Of a stretch of 64,000 nt of DNA, positions 40,100-51,620 are shown in pieces. A program made the translations under genes and the position numbers. The notes under the pieces were generated by a model that was given only the letters and a program-made list of their open reading frames with translations, was not told the origin of the DNA and searched no databases. Source of the stretch: Leuconostoc falkenbergense (GTDB lineage: Bacteria > Bacillota > Bacilli > Lactobacillales > Lactobacillaceae); contig NZ_BMBS01000003.1 in assembly GCF_014634805.1 (NCBI RefSeq), forward strand, positions 1-64,000. Direction: 5' to 3'. Position 1 is the stretch's first letter; each line of letters starts with the position of its first letter.

Positions 40100-41127
40100 A
40101 TGAATTTTAAAAAAATAGGACTGATTTTTGTAGCAACTGCAATGACGATGACACCATTATTAAGTACCGCTAATGCGGAAGATAATAGTGTTGGTTTGCG
40201 TGTGAGCGCTGTTTTGCCAGAAAATCAACGATCAAACGATATTTCATATTTTGATTTGTTGGTTAAGCCAAAAGATGAACAGACGCTCATTGTTAACGTA
40301 GTCAATACCAGTAATAAACCACAAACTGTGAACACAGCGGTCAGCGCTGCCAAAACAAACATCAACGGTGTCGTAGAATATGCCCCATCTAAGAACAAAC
40401 TAGATAAGTCAGCACCGTTTGATATGGCAAAAATTGCGACCCTACCTAAATCAGTAGAAATTCCTGCCAATAGCTCAAAAAAATTGGAAGTGAAATTGGC
40501 TATTCCAGATAAAAACTGGGATGGTGTAGTGGCCGGGGGTATTACGGTGACACAAGCTGAAGCTACCCAAAGTAATAGTAACAAAAAAAGCGGTGTAACG
40601 ATTCGAATCGATACGCCTACGCAATTGGTGTTTTGCTACAAACAAAACAGGATTCAACCGTAGCTGAAAAATTGAATTTGGCTAAGGTAACCGCTGGTCA
40701 AATTGATGCACGCAATGCAATCATTTCCGAATTGCATAATACTTCCGAAACATATCTTAAGAAAGTATCTGTGACATCAAAAGTAACGCGTGTTAACAGC
40801 AGTAAAGTGCTCTATGAATCTAAGAAAAGTGATATGAAGATTGCACCGAGTTCGATTTTTAACTACCCAATCAATTTAAAGGGACATGCCTTTAAAGCGG
40901 GTCGTTATACAATGAATATGACTGTAAAATCTGAAAAAAACACTTGGCATTTCAAGAAAAACTTTACCATAATAACCAAAGAAGCGACTGATGTGAACGC
41001 CAAGGATATTACAATTGTCCATGACGAAGGCTTCAATTGGTGGTGGATCGTCTTGATTGTCGCTATCATACTAGCTCTGGGTGCCTATATTTGGAAGCGC
41101 CGTCGTAATCAAACTAACAAGAATTAA
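40100..41127 (+). pseudogene. DUF916/DUF3324 WxL-interacting cell-surface protein, frameshifted
   Basis: A 342-residue WxL-interacting protein can be rebuilt by adding one A at about 40606, where ATTCGAATCG replaces the expected ATTCGAAATCG. Frame one has a signal peptide (residues 1-26, cleaved after ANA) and DUF916 (GVxLRVSAVLPENQ, VNTSNKPQTV). Frame two continues the expected NRYAYAIGVLLQ segment into DUF3324, a C-terminal membrane helix (WWWIVLIVAIILALGAYIW) and a basic tail. WxL-interacting proteins anchor in the membrane and bind WxL proteins and peptidoglycan. The truncated form would be secreted without an anchor. Placed near a WxL gene at 46.6 kb. Confidence 0.85.
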
Positions 41128-41130
41128 ATA

Positions 41131-41210
41131 AAAAAAGCCTAAAAAGAAGCAATGCATATCTGAAAGATAAAGTAACTGTCGCAGATATGTGGCTTTTTTT
41201 TAGGCTTTTT
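41131..41210. terminator. Long bidirectional hairpin terminator
   Basis: AAAAAAGCCTAAAAAGAAGC (41131-41150) pairs with GCTTTTTTTTAGGCTTTTT (41192-41210); inside, GCATATCTG and CAGATATGT form a second stem. It separates the converging DUF916 gene and the lectin-like gene. Confidence 0.8.
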
Positions 41211-41227
41211 GATAGCAAATAATTATC

Positions 41228-42847
41228 TTAACGTTCGGCTAGTAGTGTGTAGTGAGCTAATAGTGTGACGACTTGAGTGAATGAAGATGATTCACTTGCC
41301 GGGCTTGGTTGAAAATTAGGCTGTGTCATTTCGTTAAAATCACTTACTGTATCTTGAAATAATGCGTATGGTTGATTTTTGGAGATCACATGTTTCTTTT
41401 TTGGCGTTGTGACAGCGGGTGATTGTTTGCTGCTGGTTGGTTTTTTAGATTGCGACGTGGCATTTTCAGTAGCTGCTTGACTAGCTGATGACGCCTTAGG
41501 CGTTGATTGTGTGTTGCTTGGATTTGGTTGCGGTCTTATTTGTGCTTGTGAGAGGAATGGGTCTGCAACGCGATCAGTGTGCTGGGAAATCGTACTGTTG
41601 TTGACGGGTTGACTGGCATTCTTTTCGAGGTGAATTGTGAAATGCCAAGTGGTGTTATTATCCTTTGGCAAAACAAAGCTGCCGGGCCAGTCAGTTTGAG
41701 ACATTGTATAGTCTTTTAATTGTGCCAGAGTGGACACTGGTGAAAAATCAATTTGTTCGCCAGTGTGTCCAGAAAAAATAGCCTTGCGTAGTATTTTGCC
41801 TTGATATTCAAAGTTAATCGTAACGTATTGCGTTAAAGGTTCGTAATAATAATTAATGCTACGGTTGTCATGATACGTAAAAATGCCGTTGGCATTATTT
41901 GGTTGCGACGCGAGCTTAAAACCGGGTAATGATAGGGGCTTTGTGTGATAAGGTGTGTTCAAATCACCAGAAATAGTTTGTGAAGCTGCGAGGGGATGTT
42001 GTTGCTCATCGAGATAGTTAATCCTTAGCGAGGTGGTATAAGGGTGGTAGTCGTTGCGTTCAATCATTAATTGTTGCAAGTTATGATTGGTACCCGTTGA
42101 CGCAGAAAAAACAAGCGATATTGGATTGGTTAACAAATCCTCATCAGTGATGTGATAGGACCATACTTTTGACTGATAGGTCACCATTAAATTTTGTGTT
42201 TCAGCATGGTAGACTATCTGCAATGATTCAAAATCATCATTAGTGTGTGGTTTGATAGCCATGGCATCATGTTCATAGGTTTGAATTTCACCATCTGTGC
42301 TAGATCCAAAGAAAGCACCAAATGGTGACCCGTTGCCTTCTGAAGTACCAAATTCTTTGGGATCGCTGGTAAATGATCCTGCTTCGCCGTTGGCATTATA
42401 ATAAGTATCTAATTTGAAACCAAAAACATTCGCAATTTTACCTAAACCAAAGGCACCACCATTTGTATGATTAACTTGACTAACCTTTTCAAAAGGTACC
42501 AATGCGAAAGCTAACCCGTCGCCACCGCATTGTTGTTGCAATTTGCTACCTAAATTAACCTTTAAGTCCAACGAAAAATCTTGTGATAAATCAATGGGCG
42601 TATTTTGATAAGCAGCTCCGGACAGCATAGGGTGGTCATCAGTTAACGTAAAAATATTGTGATTAACTTTGGCCGAACCATTGGTTGTAAAATTTGAAAT
42701 TAATTGTTGTTGTGTTAAGTGGCTTTGTGAAATTAAAGCACTAGCATTAGCCACTGTGTAAGGCATTAATTGATTAACAGTGAGTAGTGTTGAACTAAAT
42801 GCCAAAAGGTAGTAGAGGCGGTTTATTTTATTTTGATTGTTGGTCAT
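41228..42847 (-). CDS. Surface protein with L-type (legume-like) lectin and MucBP-like domains
   Basis: The 539-residue protein has an N-terminal hydrophobic segment (about 10-30) as signal peptide. Residues about 45-265 fit a bacterial L-type lectin domain: DLSQDFSLDLKVNLG, GGDGLAFALVP with the metal-site Asp, and FGFKLDTYYNANG. Residues about 270-400 carry MucBP-like repeats (INYLDEQQHPL, GYxxx...F.YHDN..INYYYEP). A Pro/Ser/Thr/Gln-rich tail follows. There is no LPxTG motif or terminal charged anchor, so wall attachment is unclear. It starts inside the Mga-like regulator gene (20-bp overlap), so both are one operon. A carbohydrate-binding adhesin is likely. Confidence 0.75.
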   Translation of the reverse strand: MTNNQNKINRLYYLLAFSSTLLTVNQLMPYTVANASALISQSHLTQQQLISNFTTNGSAKVNHNIFTLTDDHPMLSGAAYQNTPIDLSQDFSLDLKVNLGSKLQQQCGGDGLAFALVPFEKVSQVNHTNGGAFGLGKIANVFGFKLDTYYNANGEAGSFTSDPKEFGTSEGNGSPFGAFFGSSTDGEIQTYEHDAMAIKPHTNDDFESLQIVYHAETQNLMVTYQSKVWSYHITDEDLLTNPISLVFSASTGTNHNLQQLMIERNDYHPYTTSLRINYLDEQQHPLAASQTISGDLNTPYHTKPLSLPGFKLASQPNNANGIFTYHDNRSINYYYEPLTQYVTINFEYQGKILRKAIFSGHTGEQIDFSPVSTLAQLKDYTMSQTDWPGSFVLPKDNNTTWHFTIHLEKNASQPVNNSTISQHTDRVADPFLSQAQIRPQPNPSNTQSTPKASSASQAATENATSQSKKPTSSKQSPAVTTPKKKHVISKNQPYALFQDTVSDFNEMTQPNFQPSPASESSSFTQVVTLLAHYTLLAER

Positions 42848-44243
42848 TTTTATTTTTCTTTAGCCTTATGATGAGTTCAGCGAGTGATTGCCAATCACTA
42901 ACTGTGGGTGGTTTTTTCCAAATCACTTGAGGTTTTGAGACGTCGTCACAAAGTGTGTCCGACAGGTAAATGTCAGCACTGTCATCAAGGACTTCAGTGA
43001 CAAAATGCACACTGGCGTGACTGATATGATCTTTTAATATCGCTTCGATCATATTATTGGTGAAAGGGGATCCCGAAAAATTAAGACTAATAGTGATGGC
43101 GTCAACATTAGTGATGTCCAAATAGTAAAAGATGATACTAATCATATTTAAAATGGCTGCGTTTAAATAGGTGGGTGGCACGATTTCTTTGGGATAGTTA
43201 ATTGATTGTAAAAAGGATTCAATCAAGTAATAAATTGACGGATAGATATCTTGAAAATAATTCGTTGAAATATTATCTTGCGATAGCAGCGCCCAATGGT
43301 TAGTTGTCGTAAATTTAAGGCAATAACATGCCATTGCGTGACTAATTTTCTCAGCGTCTTCGGGTGTGCAATTTAATTTACTATGACTTAATCTTGGCAT
43401 GATTACCGCCGCCAGTCGATCTACAATTGGTTGGGCGTAATCAGTGAAAGAGATGGGCGCCGATATTTCTAATAGGTCAAAAATATTAAGGGCACTAATG
43501 AGATGTGATAGCACCATGTTATTTAGAGGAATGCCTAAACGTTGACAAATATCATCTGGCAAACCGTCATCAACATGGATGTGCTTGTCTTCGTGTTGCA
43601 TGATATTGCGGCAGTTGTCTGGATTATGGGTTATTTCATTCAAAAAAATAGCGATCAGAAGTCTTTTTTTGTCAGCACCGTGGGTATTGATGTAGCTTTT
43701 GTCAACTAAAAATTGACTGACTGCTTGACTTGCTGACAGGATATAATGATCAAATTTTGGTTTAGCATCGTAGTGATCGTAAATCACAAAAGCGGCCGAA
43801 ATCACAGCTTCGGGTGAGTCAAGATCAATAAGCTCTGATAAGGTATTTTTTTGAATGAAGAAATAAGAGGTGCTCCAGCCAAATTCCGATTGCATAAACG
43901 TGTAATTTGGTATGCTGCCAGAAATTAATCGTTGATCTAGCAATAATTTAAGTGGCGATAAATCAAAGAAATATTGCGATAAACGATAGACATGATAACG
44001 AGTCAATGTCATTTTTTGATAAATGATACCACGTTTTAGTACCATCCAATCGTCACCAAATAACACGTTGATGTCACTATTTAGGGCTTCTAATGACTCA
44101 CGCATCAAATAGTCTGACACTTTGAACTGATTGGTTAAATTACGAAGCTCGTAGGTGTTTTGTTTGTTTTCCAGCAAAGTAGTGAGTAACTTAATCTTTA
44201 AAGCGTCATTTTTATTAATAAATTCATTCAGGATTGAGGGCAT
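42828..44243 (-). CDS. Mga-like transcriptional regulator
   Basis: The 471-residue protein has two N-terminal helix-turn-helix regions (about 15-60 and 65-110; NQFKVSDYLMRESLEALN), a long helical middle like Mga/AtxA PRD-type domains, and a C-terminal EIIB-like segment. Mga-family proteins activate adhesin genes in streptococci and related bacteria in response to sugar phosphotransferase signals. Its neighbours are surface protein genes on both sides, so it probably controls this island. The 20-bp overlap with the downstream lectin gene supports co-expression. Confidence 0.7.
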   Translation of the reverse strand: MPSILNEFINKNDALKIKLLTTLLENKQNTYELRNLTNQFKVSDYLMRESLEALNSDINVLFGDDWMVLKRGIIYQKMTLTRYHVYRLSQYFFDLSPLKLLLDQRLISGSIPNYTFMQSEFGWSTSYFFIQKNTLSELIDLDSPEAVISAAFVIYDHYDAKPKFDHYILSASQAVSQFLVDKSYINTHGADKKRLLIAIFLNEITHNPDNCRNIMQHEDKHIHVDDGLPDDICQRLGIPLNNMVLSHLISALNIFDLLEISAPISFTDYAQPIVDRLAAVIMPRLSHSKLNCTPEDAEKISHAMACYCLKFTTTNHWALLSQDNISTNYFQDIYPSIYYLIESFLQSINYPKEIVPPTYLNAAILNMISIIFYYLDITNVDAITISLNFSGSPFTNNMIEAILKDHISHASVHFVTEVLDDSADIYLSDTLCDDVSKPQVIWKKPPTVSDWQSLAELIIRLKKNKNDQQSK

Positions 44244-44307
44244 AGGAATCTTTCGTTGTAGTGTTTATCGGTATATTACATTCATTATAAAACAGTTGGC
44301 AGGTCAT

Positions 44308-44343
44308 GCAAAAAAAAACCCATCAATTAATTTGATGAGTTTT
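44308..44343 (-). terminator. Terminator of the Cna-B surface protein gene
   Basis: On the minus strand AAAACTCATCAAA and TTGATGGGTTTT form a stem with a short AT-rich loop, followed by a long T-run (44308-44317 as A on the plus strand). Confidence 0.82.
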
Positions 44344-44348
44344 ATCAA

Positions 44349-46292
44349 TTAGTTGTGACGTTTTTGATACCAAACGAGTGTAATCGTAGTCATAGCCAAC
44401 GCTAGGAGAACGAGTGGCACAATTGCCAAAGCTTGAGCACTTGTACTTGGTAACTTAGCTTGCTTAGCAGGTGCTTCAGGTGTGAGTTTTGGTTCACTAG
44501 GTTGAATTGGCTTATCTGGTGTCACTGGGTCTACTGGAATAATTGGCGTAGGCGTAGGCGTGGGAGTAGGAGTAGGAGTAGGCGTAGGTGTTGGCGTGTG
44601 ATGATTAATAATATCGAAGCCAGACACTTCAGTCTTATATCCTGAAACCTTATCTTCAGTGACGGTATAGACAATCTTTTTACCGTTAGTATCGTACTTT
44701 TGTAAATCAGTGAAACTGTATTGCCAATTATCTTTGGCTGTTACGGTTTTTGTATTGATGATTTGACCATTAGCCAATAAATTAACTTTAATGGCGTCAG
44801 GACGGCTACCATCTTGGTTGTTTTGGTCGTCCCAAGTTTTTGTACCTGATACAGAAGTTGTATCAGATAGTGTATTGGTAAAGTTATTACCGTCTTGTTG
44901 AGATGTGTAATGATCAACTGCTTCTTCCTTGACGGTGTAGGTATACGCATTGGCATCGGCATCATACTTTGGCAAGTTAGTGAATGAATATTGCCAGTTC
45001 GTCTCTTCGGAAACGGACTTACTATCAATTTTTACACCATTTTGGTAAAGATCAACGATGATTGCGTCAGGACGTAATCCTTCGGCGTTGTTATCATCTT
45101 GCCAAGTTTTCGTGCCTGATACAGTTTCAGTGGTTTCACCACCACCGCCACCACCATTATCTGGTGTATAGATATCTACGGTCTGCTTTTCTATATTGTC
45201 ACCAGTAAGCTGACCAGAATTTTCATATTTGGAAGATTGACCGCCATCGGTAGCACGAGAGTCATAATTAATTAGAACGGTATCACTAAAATCACCAATA
45301 TTGATATGGAATTGCGTGTCTGAATCATAGGAGATTGCGTCAGCTGGCACATCACTACTTTTTATGAAATCTGTAAAAGTAGCGTTGTAAGAACCATGCA
45401 TTGCTGCCACTGTACCATGGACAACTTGTTGATTTTCGCCTATGAAGTCTGTATAAACACCATTTTTAATTTCTTCTTGTGTTAAATTCAGTCTCACTGT
45501 CCAATGAATAAGTGTTGGATCATTAGAATCAACTGTTCCCCATTTATACAAAACTTCATTTGGATCTGGTGTTGGATTGCCATCAGGGTCAACATGAATA
45601 GTTTGACCATTTGTTCCCCAATCAATCGGGACATCTGTATCTTCTTCTACTTGGCTATGATTCCAGTGAACCCAAATATTGAAGTCACCATTTATGCCGT
45701 TTTTGGCTGATGTTTCTGCATAATCAGTAAACGTAATTGTTACTTTACCTGTTGTATGGTCAGCCACAGCATGACCAATGACATTGCCGGCAGCGTCTTT
45801 GATATCAAATGTGACATCAGATTGTAATGCCAATACTGAGGGCACATTAACCGACATTGTATCTCCGGACTTAATAGCAGTTCCTGCGGGAATGTTATAG
45901 TCCCAGTGGGCTTGCATATTGTCGTAAATGCCAAAATCCGTTTTTGGATTACCGTTTTCATCTTCGAGTTCTGCATGGGTCACGAACTGGTCACCCCAGT
46001 CTGTGGCTCTCAAAGCAGGCGCACGAGATTGTGCTTGTGCATTAGTTATTTGATTAGTAGCTTTTTGATTCTGTGTTGTTGGTATTAGTGAAGACTTGTC
46101 GCTTGTAGCGGGCAAAGTTGTAGCTGCTGTCGTCTCTTCTTTAGTGACATCAGTGTGATTGCTTTGCTCCGTTGTTGCCTGTGATACTGTTGTATCCGTT
46201 GAAGCTGCCTGTGTGGCAGCTGATATAGGCGTCACAGCAAAAGTGCTGATCATCACAACCAAACTGAACAGTGTGGTGAATTTCTTGAACAT
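44349..46292 (-). CDS. Collagen-adhesin-type surface protein with two Cna-B domains and LPxTS anchor
   Basis: The 647-residue protein has a signal peptide (1-25, cleavage near ISA), a Thr/Gln-rich linker, an adhesin A-region of two Ig-like folds (about 95-370; WGDQFVTHAELED, IPAGTAIKSGDTMSVNVPS, typical of Cna/SdrG-type binding domains), two Cna-B repeats (VSGTKTWQDDNN at about 395 and VSGTKTWDDQNN at about 487; 90-residue spacing), a (TP)n stalk, and a sorting signal LPSTS followed by a hydrophobic helix and KRHN. Cna-B domains usually hold Lys-Asn isopeptide bonds. Possible ligand: collagen-like or other host/plant matrix. Start at ATG 46292 with AAGGAGAG upstream. Confidence 0.88.
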   Translation of the reverse strand: MFKKFTTLFSLVVMISTFAVTPISAATQAASTDTTVSQATTEQSNHTDVTKEETTAATTLPATSDKSSLIPTTQNQKATNQITNAQAQSRAPALRATDWGDQFVTHAELEDENGNPKTDFGIYDNMQAHWDYNIPAGTAIKSGDTMSVNVPSVLALQSDVTFDIKDAAGNVIGHAVADHTTGKVTITFTDYAETSAKNGINGDFNIWVHWNHSQVEEDTDVPIDWGTNGQTIHVDPDGNPTPDPNEVLYKWGTVDSNDPTLIHWTVRLNLTQEEIKNGVYTDFIGENQQVVHGTVAAMHGSYNATFTDFIKSSDVPADAISYDSDTQFHINIGDFSDTVLINYDSRATDGGQSSKYENSGQLTGDNIEKQTVDIYTPDNGGGGGGETTETVSGTKTWQDDNNAEGLRPDAIIVDLYQNGVKIDSKSVSEETNWQYSFTNLPKYDADANAYTYTVKEEAVDHYTSQQDGNNFTNTLSDTTSVSGTKTWDDQNNQDGSRPDAIKVNLLANGQIINTKTVTAKDNWQYSFTDLQKYDTNGKKIVYTVTEDKVSGYKTEVSGFDIINHHTPTPTPTPTPTPTPTPTPIIPVDPVTPDKPIQPSEPKLTPEAPAKQAKLPSTSAQALAIVPLVLLALAMTTITLVWYQKRHN

Positions 46293-47215: not shown

Positions 47216-48007
47216 ATGAATGACAACATCATATCAATTGCTGAAAAGATTTACTTTGATGACGATGGCCAATTAGTTATTACTGAAGGACGACCGAACT
47301 TCACATCAGCAGTTGAGAAGCTTTTTGATAATAGTGTTAGTATGCACATCTGTCATTCGATTAGTTGGCAGACGATGGATGATATAGTAGGGGGCATTGT
47401 AAAGTCGGCTTATGATAAGTCACAGAAAGAAAATTTGATAAGCACTTTCTTACGCGCTTTATATGCTGGCGAAGTCAGTCCAACGGTCAATCATAAGGCA
47501 ACAGCTGCCACTTTGAGCGACGATTACAATGCATGGTGTTTGCAAAACATTGAATCACTATGGTCACAAAATAACGGTTTAGTTCAAACATTTTATCAAA
47601 AAATGTTTAGTCAAGTGCACAACTTACGTTTAGATAAAGGTTTTTGGAATATAAGAATTAAGATGAATTTTGACCCACGTCACTGGGTGCACTACAATGA
47701 TGCTGGTGTGGCAGATATGAGTGATGATAATCCGAATCCACCTAGTGGACCAGATGTTTATCGCAACACTTTCGTACTGACAAGCGATGCTGACGCCAGA
47801 CAATTAAACTGGCTAGCAGCGGTCACGAGTGCAATAGGATTCGGTTATCCAGACTTTGTACAAAATAAACTGGGTGTGTCATTTAGTTTTCCAGCAGTCT
47901 ATACGTGGCAACCAGTTTTGTACTCGTCTTCTAATAGCTTCTTAATTAATTGGGATCATAAAGCCTACTTGAACGAATATATTGAGTGGGATACAAGTAA
48001 ATTTTAG
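47216..48007 (+). CDS. Hypothetical protein, first gene of the lectin cassette (263 aa)
   Basis: The 263-residue protein is soluble with no signal peptide or membrane helix. The first 100 residues look helical; the rest is aromatic-rich (KGFWNIRIKMNFDPRHWVHYND, PDVYRNTFVLTSDADARQLNW), like a beta-rich binding domain. GAGGTAG precedes the ATG at 47216. I do not recognise the family. It is followed at 26 bp by another unfamiliar gene, and all four genes are tightly packed, so it probably contributes to one complex or pathway with the LecB-like lectin. Confidence 0.75.
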   Translation: MNDNIISIAEKIYFDDDGQLVITEGRPNFTSAVEKLFDNSVSMHICHSISWQTMDDIVGGIVKSAYDKSQKENLISTFLRALYAGEVSPTVNHKATAATLSDDYNAWCLQNIESLWSQNNGLVQTFYQKMFSQVHNLRLDKGFWNIRIKMNFDPRHWVHYNDAGVADMSDDNPNPPSGPDVYRNTFVLTSDADARQLNWLAAVTSAIGFGYPDFVQNKLGVSFSFPAVYTWQPVLYSSSNSFLINWDHKAYLNEYIEWDTSKF

Positions 48008-48033
48008 CTTAAATTATCACAAAAGGAGAAACT

Positions 48034-48876
48034 ATGGGAATTCTAGGAACAATATTGGGTGCCGGTGCAATGGTGGGTAAGATTTGTGGCGCTTTTGCGA
48101 GCACATTGTCTGATACCAATGCGGGACGCTTAACTATGTGCTACACTGACCATGATGGACAGACACACTTATTATCTGACACTGGCTTATCAATCGGTGA
48201 TGGCTCTTTTATCACAAGTAAAAATGAAACAACTGGTAAGGTTGATCATCTTTTGTTCAATCGCTCCTCTGAAAATGCACTCGAGATTACCCGTGCTAAT
48301 GTTGATGATATCAAGGGTGATGACCCAATGAGTGAAAGCTTGCTCATTGGGCCAACTGATAAAGGTTATATTGAACCATTTTATACGAATTCACATTATC
48401 CAGTTGACACATTTGTGCAAGTCGTGCCAGTTAACGAACCCACCACTTTTAGAGGAAATGCTCTGGCGGCTGGCGGCATGATTTATACTGCGAGTTTTAA
48501 AAATTTAGTTGTTGATTCTGAAAATGTTAAATCAGGTTCTTATTTTCAATTGAATTATAATCAAGGCGCTTTGTTCTTTTCAAATGTTACCCTTGCGCCA
48601 TCAGGCGTGGCCTATTTAAGAGTCACAGCGCATAATGGGATTGCGTTTAGCAATGAGGTTGAATTACCAGTTGTGAAGACTGGTAATAACTATAATTGTA
48701 AGTACTCATTTTCTGAATTTGGCATCAAAAGTGGTGATGTTGTTGACATTGATTTACGTGTGCTGTTTGGGGCTGCAGAAGCTTCAAAGATAAAACAATT
48801 ACAAACAAATCGAGGCTTGAAAACAGCACCAATAAATGAACACGAGATGGATTTCATCTCACAATTACACCTTTAA
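48034..48876 (+). CDS. Hypothetical protein, second gene of the lectin cassette (280 aa)
   Basis: The 280-residue protein begins with a Gly/Ala/Ile-rich N-terminus (MGILGTILGAGAMVGKICGA), hydrophobic but without the basic start of a signal peptide, so it may be a membrane-inserting or self-assembling segment. The rest is beta-rich and ends with a helical tail. AAAGGAGA precedes the ATG. I recognise no family. It ends five bases before the next gene, which has no ribosome site of its own and so is coupled to it. Confidence 0.75.
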   Translation: MGILGTILGAGAMVGKICGAFASTLSDTNAGRLTMCYTDHDGQTHLLSDTGLSIGDGSFITSKNETTGKVDHLLFNRSSENALEITRANVDDIKGDDPMSESLLIGPTDKGYIEPFYTNSHYPVDTFVQVVPVNEPTTFRGNALAAGGMIYTASFKNLVVDSENVKSGSYFQLNYNQGALFFSNVTLAPSGVAYLRVTAHNGIAFSNEVELPVVKTGNNYNCKYSFSEFGIKSGDVVDIDLRVLFGAAEASKIKQLQTNRGLKTAPINEHEMDFISQLHL

Positions 48877-48881
48877 TTGTG

Positions 48882-49442
48882 ATGGATGGATTTGTTCGTG
48901 GGCAATTGTTTGCTAACATCTATATTGGTGTTCCTTATTCAACAGTGATTGCTTACATGACGGACAATGAAGTTAATCCAAATGTGACATTTCAAATAGT
49001 TGCCGGGCAACTACCGGGGGGGATACTGTTTAATGAAACGACTGGTGAATTATATGGAACGGCAACGCCATTTGCGCAGACTCATGATGTGCAAGTGAGC
49101 ACAATCAATGGTCATGATATTTTAACAGTACGTTTAAATATTTGTGCGACGGTTTCGCCACCACTTAAGATTGGACCATTATCTAAAATCATTATTTTTC
49201 AAAAAGGACAGTTTTTTGCACAAAAAATAGCGGTTGATGGCGGTGTTGGCAAGATAAATTATAGTTGTCACGGTTTGCCATGTGGCTTATATTGTCATGG
49301 GACAACTGGTGTGATTTATGGACAACCCATTGCGTTTGGCGGCGATACAACAATTACAATAACGGTGATGGATAGCCAGAACACAACAGATACTGTAAAG
49401 GTGATTATTAGAATGGTACAAGATGATGATGAAAGATATTAG
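48882..49442 (+). CDS. Two-repeat putative Ig (He_PIG-like) protein in the lectin cassette
   Basis: The 186-residue protein has two cadherin/Ig-like repeats with the He_PIG signature LPxGLxxxxTTGxIxG: QLPGGILFNETTGELYG (about residues 43-59) and GLPCGLYCHGTTGVIYG (about 130-146). Such domains occur in extracellular carbohydrate-binding proteins. It has no signal peptide. The ATG at 48882 is preferred; a GTG one codon earlier is possible. No ribosome site is seen, so translation is coupled to the gene before. Its 3' end overlaps the lectin gene by 20 bp. Confidence 0.75.
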   Translation: MDGFVRGQLFANIYIGVPYSTVIAYMTDNEVNPNVTFQIVAGQLPGGILFNETTGELYGTATPFAQTHDVQVSTINGHDILTVRLNICATVSPPLKIGPLSKIIIFQKGQFFAQKIAVDGGVGKINYSCHGLPCGLYCHGTTGVIYGQPIAFGGDTTITITVMDSQNTTDTVKVIIRMVQDDDERY

Positions 49443-49806
49443 AACTGAAACGCTTGAATTTCCAGCTGGTTATTTTGGTTTAGTGACGATGACAACGCAA
49501 GCAGGTTATGCCATAGAAGTTACTATTACTGATCAGAATGGTACGCAATTATTTTATGCGCAGCGATCAAGTAGCAATCCAATACCAACTATTACTGGCA
49601 CATTTATCACATTGACAGACAATCCTACGGTGACAATTCGTTGTGATGATTCGACAGATTTAGATGTGCGCTATGAGCAACTCACTATTTCAAATAATGA
49701 TGACAGTCTGATTACTCGTGATTATGTTTTCGTGGCGGAAGATTGGACCGACTACGATTATAATGACTTATTTTTATCAGTGTCAGCATGGCAACATAAC
49801 GGTTAA
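49423..49806 (+). CDS. LecB/PA-IIL-like calcium-dependent lectin
   Basis: The 127-residue protein resembles Pseudomonas fucose lectin LecB. Near the C-terminus EDWTDYDYND (residues 106-115) reproduces the calcium loop: LecB has Glu95, Asp99, Asp101, Asn103, Asp104, and here Glu106, Asp110, Asp112, Asn114, Asp115 have identical spacing. It also ends in Gly (127), as LecB ends in Gly114 whose carboxylate reaches a neighbouring calcium site. The N-terminus (LEFPAGYFGLVT) parallels LecB FTLPANTRFGVT. It probably binds two calcium ions and a sugar. No signal peptide, as in LecB. The identification is mine from motif alignment by memory. Confidence 0.75.
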   Translation: MMMKDIRTETLEFPAGYFGLVTMTTQAGYAIEVTITDQNGTQLFYAQRSSSNPIPTITGTFITLTDNPTVTIRCDDSTDLDVRYEQLTISNNDDSLITRDYVFVAEDWTDYDYNDLFLSVSAWQHNG

Positions 49807-49853: not shown

Positions 49854-49883
49854 TTGACAATGTTCGGATTTTTCACGTACAAT
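49854..49883 (+). promoter_or_regulatory. Promoter of tgt
   Basis: TTGACA (49854-49859), 18-bp spacer, TACAAT (49878-49883). Confidence 0.8.
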
Positions 49884-49953
49884 AGTAAAGTAACTAATTA
49901 ACTGAAAAGATTGATTTACAGAAAGATAACTTGCTAAATACGGAGAAATAACA

Positions 49954-51174
49954 ATGGCAAAATCAGAACATCCGGCAGTGTGGTATGAACATCTGCATAC
50001 CGAGAAATACACCGGCGCACGCAGAGGCCGTATCCACACGCCGCATGGCACATTTGAGACGCCTATGTTCATGCCGGTTGGCACACAAGGTGCTGTCAAA
50101 GGTGTTGGTACACGTGAATTAAAAGATATTGGTGCACAATTTATTTTGAGCAATACCTATCACTTATGGGTTCGTCCCGGGGATGAGTTAATTGCGCAAG
50201 CTGGTGGGTTACACAAATATATGGGTTGGGACCAAGCCATTTTGACTGATTCAGGTGGCTTCCAAGTCTTCTCATTGGCTGACGCTCGTAAGCTCAAAGA
50301 AGAAGGCGTCACTTTCCAAAATCACGTCAACGGGGACAAGATGTTTCTATCACCTGAAGTGGCAATGAGAATTCAGAATAATTTGGGTTCAGATGTCATG
50401 ATGCAACTTGACGAAGCCATTCCGTATTTTGAAACTTATGAATACATCAAGGAATCAATGCAACGATCATTACGTTGGGCAGAACGTGCGCAAGTTGCCC
50501 ACAAAAATCCTGACACACAAGCCTTGTTTGGTATTGTACAGGGCGCTGGTTTTAAAGCATTGCGTACAGAGTCTGCTAATGGTTTAGTTGGCATGGACTT
50601 GCCCGGTTATGCAGTCGGTGGCTTATCAGTTGGTGAATCTAAAAAAGAAATGAACCGCGTGCTTGATTTCACTATGCCACTGTTGCCAGAAGACAAGCCT
50701 CGCTACCTTATGGGCGTGGCAGCACCTGATTCATTGATTGACGGTGTTATTCGCGGTGTTGATATGTTTGACTCGGTCTTGCCCACTCGAATTGGTCGTA
50801 AAGGTACCTTAATGACACGCTTTGGTCGCGTCGTCATCAAAAATTCAAAGTACAAAAATGATTTCACACCATTGGATCCAGATTTGAGTTATTACTCACC
50901 TAATCCAATTCGCCGTGAACAATTTGGTAACTTAGCACAATATGATTTGCCGGATTACAACCCATTCCAGAATCTGACACGCTCATACTTACACCACTTG
51001 TTTAACGCCAATGAGTTACTAGGTGCACAATTAGCGTCAGAACATAATTTACGTTTCTTACTGCAATTCATGGAAGATATGCGTACAGCAATCGAGAATG
51101 ATGAGCTACTAGCTTTCCGTGAGACAGTCATGGAAGAATACGGTTACAACAAACCAAATGCACGTCTTTTTTAA
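49954..51174 (+). CDS. tgt: tRNA-guanine transglycosylase, cysteine-free variant without zinc site
   Basis: Tgt is 406 residues and exchanges guanine 34 for preQ1 in Q-family tRNAs. Catalytic aspartates are present: Asp99 in TDSGGFQ, Asp153 in QLDEA and nucleophile Asp273 in MFDSVLPTR. Unusually, the protein has no cysteine at all. The Cys after Asp153+1 is Ala155, the Cys after the nucleophile is Ser274, and the CxCxxC zinc knuckle is replaced by [11 protein letters not shown] plus about 25 extra residues (310-340), although the fourth ligand His (YLHHLF, about 348) remains. Start ATG 49954 with CGGAGA. It precedes yajC as in many bacteria. Confidence 0.9.
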
Positions 51175-51254
51175 ATTTGGTACAATAGAGATACTAGTAA
51201 AATTATGGGCTTTACTCAAAATATGACCACAGAATGAAGAAAGTAGGATATAAC

Positions 51255-51620
51255 ATGTCTTGGAATTTGATTTTGCCATTGGTGATTATCGTGGCAATGT
51301 TTTGGTTTATGTCACGCCAACAAAAGAAGCAACGTGAACAACAACAAACTATGCAAAACAGTTTGCAAAAAGGTAGTTCAGTTGTGACAATTGGCGGCTT
51401 ACATGCGATTGTTGATAGCGTAGATACTGCTGCAAAAACAGTTGATTTAGACGCTGAAGGTGTTATTTTGACATTTGAATTGTCAGCAATTCGTACAATC
51501 AAAAACCCTGTTGCACCAGTAGCAGAAAAGCCAACAGTTGATGACTTAAAGCCAGCCGAAACAGTTGAAGAAACAGAAAAGATTACTGATGATACTGATA
51601 AGCCATCAGATAGCAAGTAA
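51255..51620 (+). CDS. yajC: Preprotein translocase accessory subunit YajC
   Basis: YajC is 121 residues from ATG 51255 (AGGATATAAC upstream; an ATG seven codons earlier lacks a ribosome site). One N-terminal helix (about 5-20) is followed by the family motif RQQKKQREQQQ and a GSSVVTIGGLHAIVDSV beta domain, then an acidic tail. It sits in the membrane and associates with SecDF. tgt-yajC order is conserved widely. Confidence 0.93.
   Translation: MSWNLILPLVIIVAMFWFMSRQQKKQREQQQTMQNSLQKGSSVVTIGGLHAIVDSVDTAAKTVDLDAEGVILTFELSAIRTIKNPVAPVAEKPTVDDLKPAETVEETEKITDDTDKPSDSK

Follow-up and report, generated by a model that had tools for sequence, protein, structure and literature searches.

A tRNA-guanine transglycosylase lineage of Leuconostoc and related genera that lacks the zinc knuckle and appears to remain functional

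The tRNA-guanine transglycosylase (TGT) of E. coli was reportedly established as a zinc metalloprotein by Chong et al. in 1995, with its ligands mapped by mutagenesis, and its zinc-ligand mutants are said to be impaired. Loss of the zinc should therefore need compensation. In PMC6165067 the zinc site is counted among two hallmarks of the TGT family, and it is treated as such from bacteria to humans; human QTRT1 and mouse QTRT2, which belong to the same fold family, both retain it. A whole clade without it is described here, starting from a Leuconostoc gene whose product shares with the Z. mobilis TGT (PDB 1pud and relatives) the fold, the catalytic Asp pair, the preQ1-pocket valine, the fourth-ligand His and the Y..HH motif that follows the knuckle. 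The Z. mobilis enzyme has a three-Cys-one-His zinc site and Cys158, whereas the Leuconostoc protein has none of these cysteines and carries a 22-residue insertion.

The tgt gene lies at positions 49954..51174 on the plus strand of the window, that is, the whole stretch of 64,000 nucleotides of Leuconostoc falkenbergense DNA that was analyzed, and encodes a TGT of 406 residues without a zinc knuckle and, as the first-pass annotation had stated, without any cysteine. The protein matched TIGR00430 with 491.9 bits, above the cut-off of 306.75 for an equivalog, and PF01702 with 483.9 bits; no long ORF occurs on the opposite (minus) strand across 49954-51174. A Shine-Dalgarno-like GGAG (49942..49945, plus strand) is found 8 nt 5' of the ATG, and a promoter-like TTGACA-18-TACAAT (49854..49883, plus strand) is found 70-100 bases 5' of tgt, a match to the consensus only (11 of 12 positions) and with a site count in the region no higher than in shuffles. 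The yajC gene (51234..51620, plus strand; PF02699) follows directly 3' of tgt and adjoins it in 114 of 114 loci, and an Rfam scan of the whole 64-kb window gave no match. By sequence identity the organism belongs to Leuconostoc pseudomesenteroides or stands close to it: 99.75% at the protein level, and 91% at the DNA level in a 5.3-kb comparison with strain LMG 11482.

Ribosomal proteins L31 and L33 have zinc-free (C-minus) counterparts that work without zinc and coexist with a zinc-bearing paralogue. They likewise function without a zinc site, yet as paralogue pairs, whereas tgt is single-copy here: the genome (1.96 Mb, 94 contigs) contains one TGT match and no zinc-bearing paralogue, and one TGT match was found in each of the 19 genomes of the genus. 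A C+/C- zinc-sparing pair is thus ruled out in these genomes by the sole TGT match in each. We consider it probable, at about 0.8, that the gene encodes an orthologous, working TGT that, like its counterparts in other bacteria, places preQ1 at position G34 of tRNAs with a GUN anticodon, and whose C-terminal subdomain is stable without structural zinc, which suggests that zinc is not strictly needed by TGT.

At the residue level (all codons on the plus strand), the catalytic aspartates and the fourth-ligand histidine had been noted as retained, and D99, D153, D273 and H364 are all present. D99 (50248..50250), the catalytic general acid/base that corresponds to D102 of the Z. mobilis TGT, is invariant, as are D153, D273 and V226, in 59 zinc-less and 75 zinc-bearing TGT sequences. 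The replacements reported at the two usual cysteine positions could also be verified. A155 (50416..50418; context LDEAIPY) occupies the position that is usually an active-site Cys (C158 in Z. mobilis), and this position is Ala in 59 of the 59 distinct zinc-less TGTs and Cys in 72 of 75 knuckle-bearing ones. S274, next to the nucleophile D273 (50770..50775 for both; context MFDSVLPTR), stands in place of C281 of Z. mobilis; among the zinc-less rows, position 274 is Ser in 22 and Cys in 37, with D273 in all. Since a Z. mobilis C158S/C281S/W326E/E339Q mutant was crystallized (3uvi), the two Cys beside the catalytic Asp are replaceable with the fold retained.

A further change concerns residues 308-345 (50875..50988), where relatives read D..CxCxxCxxYTRAY. 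The CxCxxC knuckle is replaced, as announced, and the extra residues, first put at about 25, amount to an insertion of 22 near residues 316-337, so that D308 to Y345 spans 38 residues against 16 or 17 in zinc-bearing TGTs. The structural zinc site CxCxxC...H is therefore missing, with three of three Cys absent and the His kept, and on its sequence the protein would be labeled a "zinc-site-less bTGT" and not a "typical bTGT". H364 (51043..51045), the equivalent of the fourth zinc ligand, is invariant with and without the zinc site and is found in 59 of 59 zinc-less TGTs. Given that Y345 and H348 are also kept, H364 may have a role beyond zinc or may be held by packing. H364 and the Asp, Glu, Ser and His of the changed segment might still coordinate a metal, if weakly.

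Structure prediction around residues 300-345, one of the checks proposed with the first-pass annotation, gave a canonical fold overall (mean pLDDT 90.5), with pLDDT of 60-82 in the changed segment against about 97 around it. The model aligned with the Z. mobilis TGT with a Z of 54 and an rmsd of 1.2 A over 368 residues at 47% identity (Z 54.2 to 1ozm), and the predicted architecture is the TIM-barrel TGT fold with its C-terminal helical subdomain. In a Weissella model, which has no insertion, pLDDT was 96-98 through the former knuckle segment. Because AlphaFold models carry no zinc atoms and zinc-bearing relatives were part of the alignments behind them, the confident predicted fold would indicate compatibility with the TGT fold and not absence of the metal. 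We infer that the protein binds no zinc and that it has normal TGT activity. The metal would be replaced by packing of the changed segment, namely DPDLDDYGSTHFTKAY in Weissella and Oenococcus, plus the 22-residue loop in Leuconostoc and its kin.

The comparison drew on TGTs at 179 loci, a number in which some genes are counted twice. Every TGT read from Leuconostoc, Fructobacillus, Convivina, Weissella and Oenococcus (59 distinct sequences) lacks the knuckle and has A155, in agreement with the earlier suggestion of a family-level trait; in Leuconostoc, the knuckle-less TGT occurs in 19 of 19 genomes of the genus. Among the clade genomes examined, the one without an intact TGT is G071 (a Weissella, genus g18), which gave only a weak partial match and has no QueA. 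CxCxxC is present in all TGTs read from other Lactobacillaceae, Enterococcus, Carnobacteriaceae and Listeria, and the alignment across the clade and its relatives that had been proposed at the outset showed no such cysteine loss in well-characterized TGTs in anything examined. A survey of Bacillota covered 398 genomes; a TGT match occurred in 381 of them, and a match to a knuckle DNA pattern, which had been correct on 114 of 114 loci tried, in 359. Of the 22 TGT-positive genomes without the pattern, 19 were read, and 17 of these do have a knuckle, its flanking codons or its spacing being variant. Beyond the genome under study, knuckle loss was found in none of the 398 Bacillota genomes, four broken or fragmentary genes being left unjudged (G458 and G637, cut by contig ends; G623 and G678, fragments unread). 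The open-access papers searched yielded no report of a zinc-less TGT, though one may exist elsewhere, and none that links Leuconostoc to TGT, zinc, DnaJ or queuosine. Leuconostoc, Weissella, Oenococcus and their kin form a group of food bacteria. Among other Bacillota TGTs, one (L145, genome G692) has DHL for DEC beside the catalytic Asp and an intact knuckle, and the matches in G456, G581, G605 (genus g175), G395 and G108 read through one in-frame TAA.

In a tree of 57 TGTs from which the trait columns were excluded, a single branch with 100/100 support separates all knuckle-less rows from the rest, and the insertion forms a single group (96/91). Knuckle loss is thus clade-wide and of single origin. 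The TGTs of the genus labeled g19 (genomes G036 and G128, of the same family), in which queA adjoins tgt, are 66-67% identical to the Leuconostoc protein and already have A155; they differ from it in an intact CDCYVC knuckle, in C274 and in the absence of the insertion. Because A155 is found there with an intact knuckle, the order of events is A155 first, then knuckle loss, then the insertion, with C274 changed repeatedly; the tree has one change at position 155 and about six at position 274. Cys155 was exchanged for Ala before the split from g19, the three knuckle Cys were lost on the stem of Leuconostoc, Fructobacillus, Convivina, Weissella and Oenococcus, and the insertion was gained on the stem of Leuconostoc, Fructobacillus and Convivina, Cys274/Ser changes being recurrent. 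The Weissella and Oenococcus TGTs have the knuckle exchanged residue for residue, from DENCDCYVCRNYSRAY to DPDLDDYGSTHFTKAY, without an insertion; therefore, the insertion is not the replacement of the zinc. A loss of all cysteines together is ruled out by this tree, and what the first-pass annotation had called a coordinated loss is stepwise instead. The dozens of zinc-site-less TGTs and their zinc-bearing A155 sister provide a ready natural comparison.

These staged changes bear on the cause of the loss. By neutral drift, the knuckle would have become dispensable after compensating changes on a fast stem branch, with no selection on zinc or thiols, and we give this explanation nearly even odds. 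The stem branch is long (0.34 changes per column), C274 has changed recurrently and the background is low in cysteine, all of which fit drift; it accounts less well for the coincidence with the neat excision of the zinc domain from DnaJ, described below, and for the fact that no other sampled lineage of Bacillota was found to have lost the knuckle.

The cysteine background itself was examined in the window, where Cys makes up 0.19% of the residues of the ORFs (0.8 Cys expected in a protein of 406 residues) and, among the 30 ORFs that reach 300 residues or more, 19 are Cys-free. The absence of cysteine from the TGT alone is therefore compositionally unremarkable, and what goes beyond chance is the clade-wide loss of three otherwise invariant zinc ligands. 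In small samples of ORFs, taken from flanks only, Cys amounted to 0.05-0.24% in Leuconostoc, Fructobacillus, Convivina, Oenococcus and Weissella (0.05% in the Weissella sample), to 0.27% in Companilactobacillus and to 0.6-1.1% in Listeria and Sporolactobacillus.

A second zinc protein is altered in the same genera. In 7 of 7 clade genomes tested (loci L201-L207; G000:C17:5242-6093 for the genome under study), covering Leuconostoc, Fructobacillus, Convivina, Weissella and Oenococcus, the whole CxxCxGxG zinc domain of DnaJ is cleanly cut out, and it is kept in two outgroups, g19 and another Lactobacillaceae genome; dnaK lies beside dnaJ in clade genomes and outgroups alike. The zinc-site-less DnaJ of the clade is a new observation here. 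In E. coli, deletion of the whole Cys-rich domain of DnaJ had no dramatic effects on co-chaperone activity, and the clade DnaJ has the same domain arrangement as this delta-DnaJ and CbpA-type J-proteins (PMC4428491), a likeness that concerns another protein and says no more than that a structural zinc domain can be dispensed with. The Cys4 zinc sites of LigA and ClpX are intact in every clade genome tested, which rules out a genome-wide loss of zinc sites. With four zinc proteins compared, two losses (TGT and DnaJ) and two retentions (LigA and ClpX) are suggestive of a selective shedding of dispensable structural zinc. The parallel loss in DnaJ raises the wider, testable question of whether structural zinc can be given up across the whole proteome of a lineage.

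An adaptive origin, in which selection on the clade ancestor favored the shedding of dispensable structural zinc or of oxidizable thiols, with TGT and DnaJ as two outcomes, is conceivable, and we would advance it tentatively. It would explain why two unrelated proteins lost their zinc sites in one clade while g19, the nearest zinc-bearing genus, keeps both, and it agrees with the very low Cys content of the clade; it has to contend with the retained sites of LigA and ClpX and with Companilactobacillus, which is nearly as Cys-poor and has kept the knuckle, and the comparison comprises four zinc proteins only. That ancestral selection removed zinc-cysteine sites from several conserved proteins, giving a TGT lineage that works without zinc, is rather doubtful; if true, such a zinc-shedding ancestor gives a natural test set for the contribution of structural zinc. 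The peroxide-producing, low-zinc lifestyle put forward earlier as the cause is unproven, given that LigA and ClpX keep their Cys4 sites, though DnaJ has lost its zinc domain, and that the proteome of the clade is Cys-poor in general. For the working TGT that we favor, the likely setting would be a Cys-poor lineage that dropped some dispensable structural zinc sites and kept others.

That the enzyme is in use is suggested by its evolution and by the genes that accompany it. Pooled pN/pS of TGT was 0.063 in Leuconostoc and 0.07-0.11 in the other genera, and that of the knuckle/insert segment was 0.06-0.19, values that point to strong purifying selection on the zinc-less TGT. QueA, which acts on the TGT product, is present in all 20 TGT-bearing genomes tested and was found in none of 15 genomes from the same family that have no full-length TGT; QueT, the precursor transporter, is present in 20 of 20 TGT-bearing genomes. 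A preQ1 riboswitch 5' of queT exceeds the curated threshold in Leuconostoc (G009) and Weissella (G298); in the genome under study, a sub-threshold one (25.5 bits) lies 5' of queT on contig C15 (G000:C15, L218:1641-1686, minus strand), and Fructobacillus and g19 have one below threshold in the same place. On genomic grounds alone, the protein thus takes the role of a bTGT in the queuosine pathway with QueA. Given the purifying selection, QueA and QueT, the preQ1 riboswitch in relatives and the confident canonical fold, the enzyme looks functional. The statement that the cysteine loss is not random decay is supported by pN/pS of 0.06-0.11 and by the Q pathway kept alongside. A clade under purifying selection and tied to the Q pathway poses directly the question of what zinc does in TGT.

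The substrate can be approached from the preQ1 pocket. V233 (Z. mobilis numbering) of bacterial TGT blocks queuine (PMC6165067, PMC11570991), and its equivalent V226, in the context GGLSVGE, is present in 59 of 59 zinc-less TGTs. Human QTRT1, which uses queuine, has V161 and a glycine at the V233 position, where the Leuconostoc protein keeps valine. With V226 kept in all, QueA and QueT present and the riboswitch 5' of queT, preQ1 is the likely substrate, and the route is likely salvage of preQ1 or a precursor, followed by TGT and then QueA. Base specificity depends in part on position 158 in Z. mobilis numbering (PMC4425180, PMC6165067), and Ala155 might on this account mark a change of substrate, with queuine taking the place of preQ1 as it does in the TGTs of eukaryotes or Chlamydia; we regard such a shift as very improbable and reject a queuine-inserting enzyme of this type, since the queuine-blocking valine is retained in the context GGLSVGE and not the GG[LS][AS]G motif of enzymes that use queuine (PMC11570991), every genome tested has QueA and a preQ1 riboswitch precedes queT. 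A decaying or inactive TGT, to which the loss of otherwise conserved residues and the disappearance of tgt from some Lactobacillaceae might point, is hardly credible and was rejected on the pN/pS of 0.06, the co-occurrence with QueA and a gene intact in all clade genomes examined bar G071.

Weak partial TGT matches only were found in genomes of genus g6 (G023, G062, G225 and others) and in G071. QueA is absent in the four of these tested (G023, G062, G225 and G071); the Q pathway therefore seems lost in the g6 genomes and G071, and tgt may be decaying there. In the window, the region directly 5' of tgt (47216-49806) holds four genes mostly without known function, one with putative Ig domains. 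The three closest to tgt were beside it in 0 of 113 other tgt loci, and this gene block seems species- or strain-specific. A cell-surface gene cluster at 40100-46292 encodes a WxL-interacting protein, a lectin/MucBP protein and a collagen-binding Cna_B protein.
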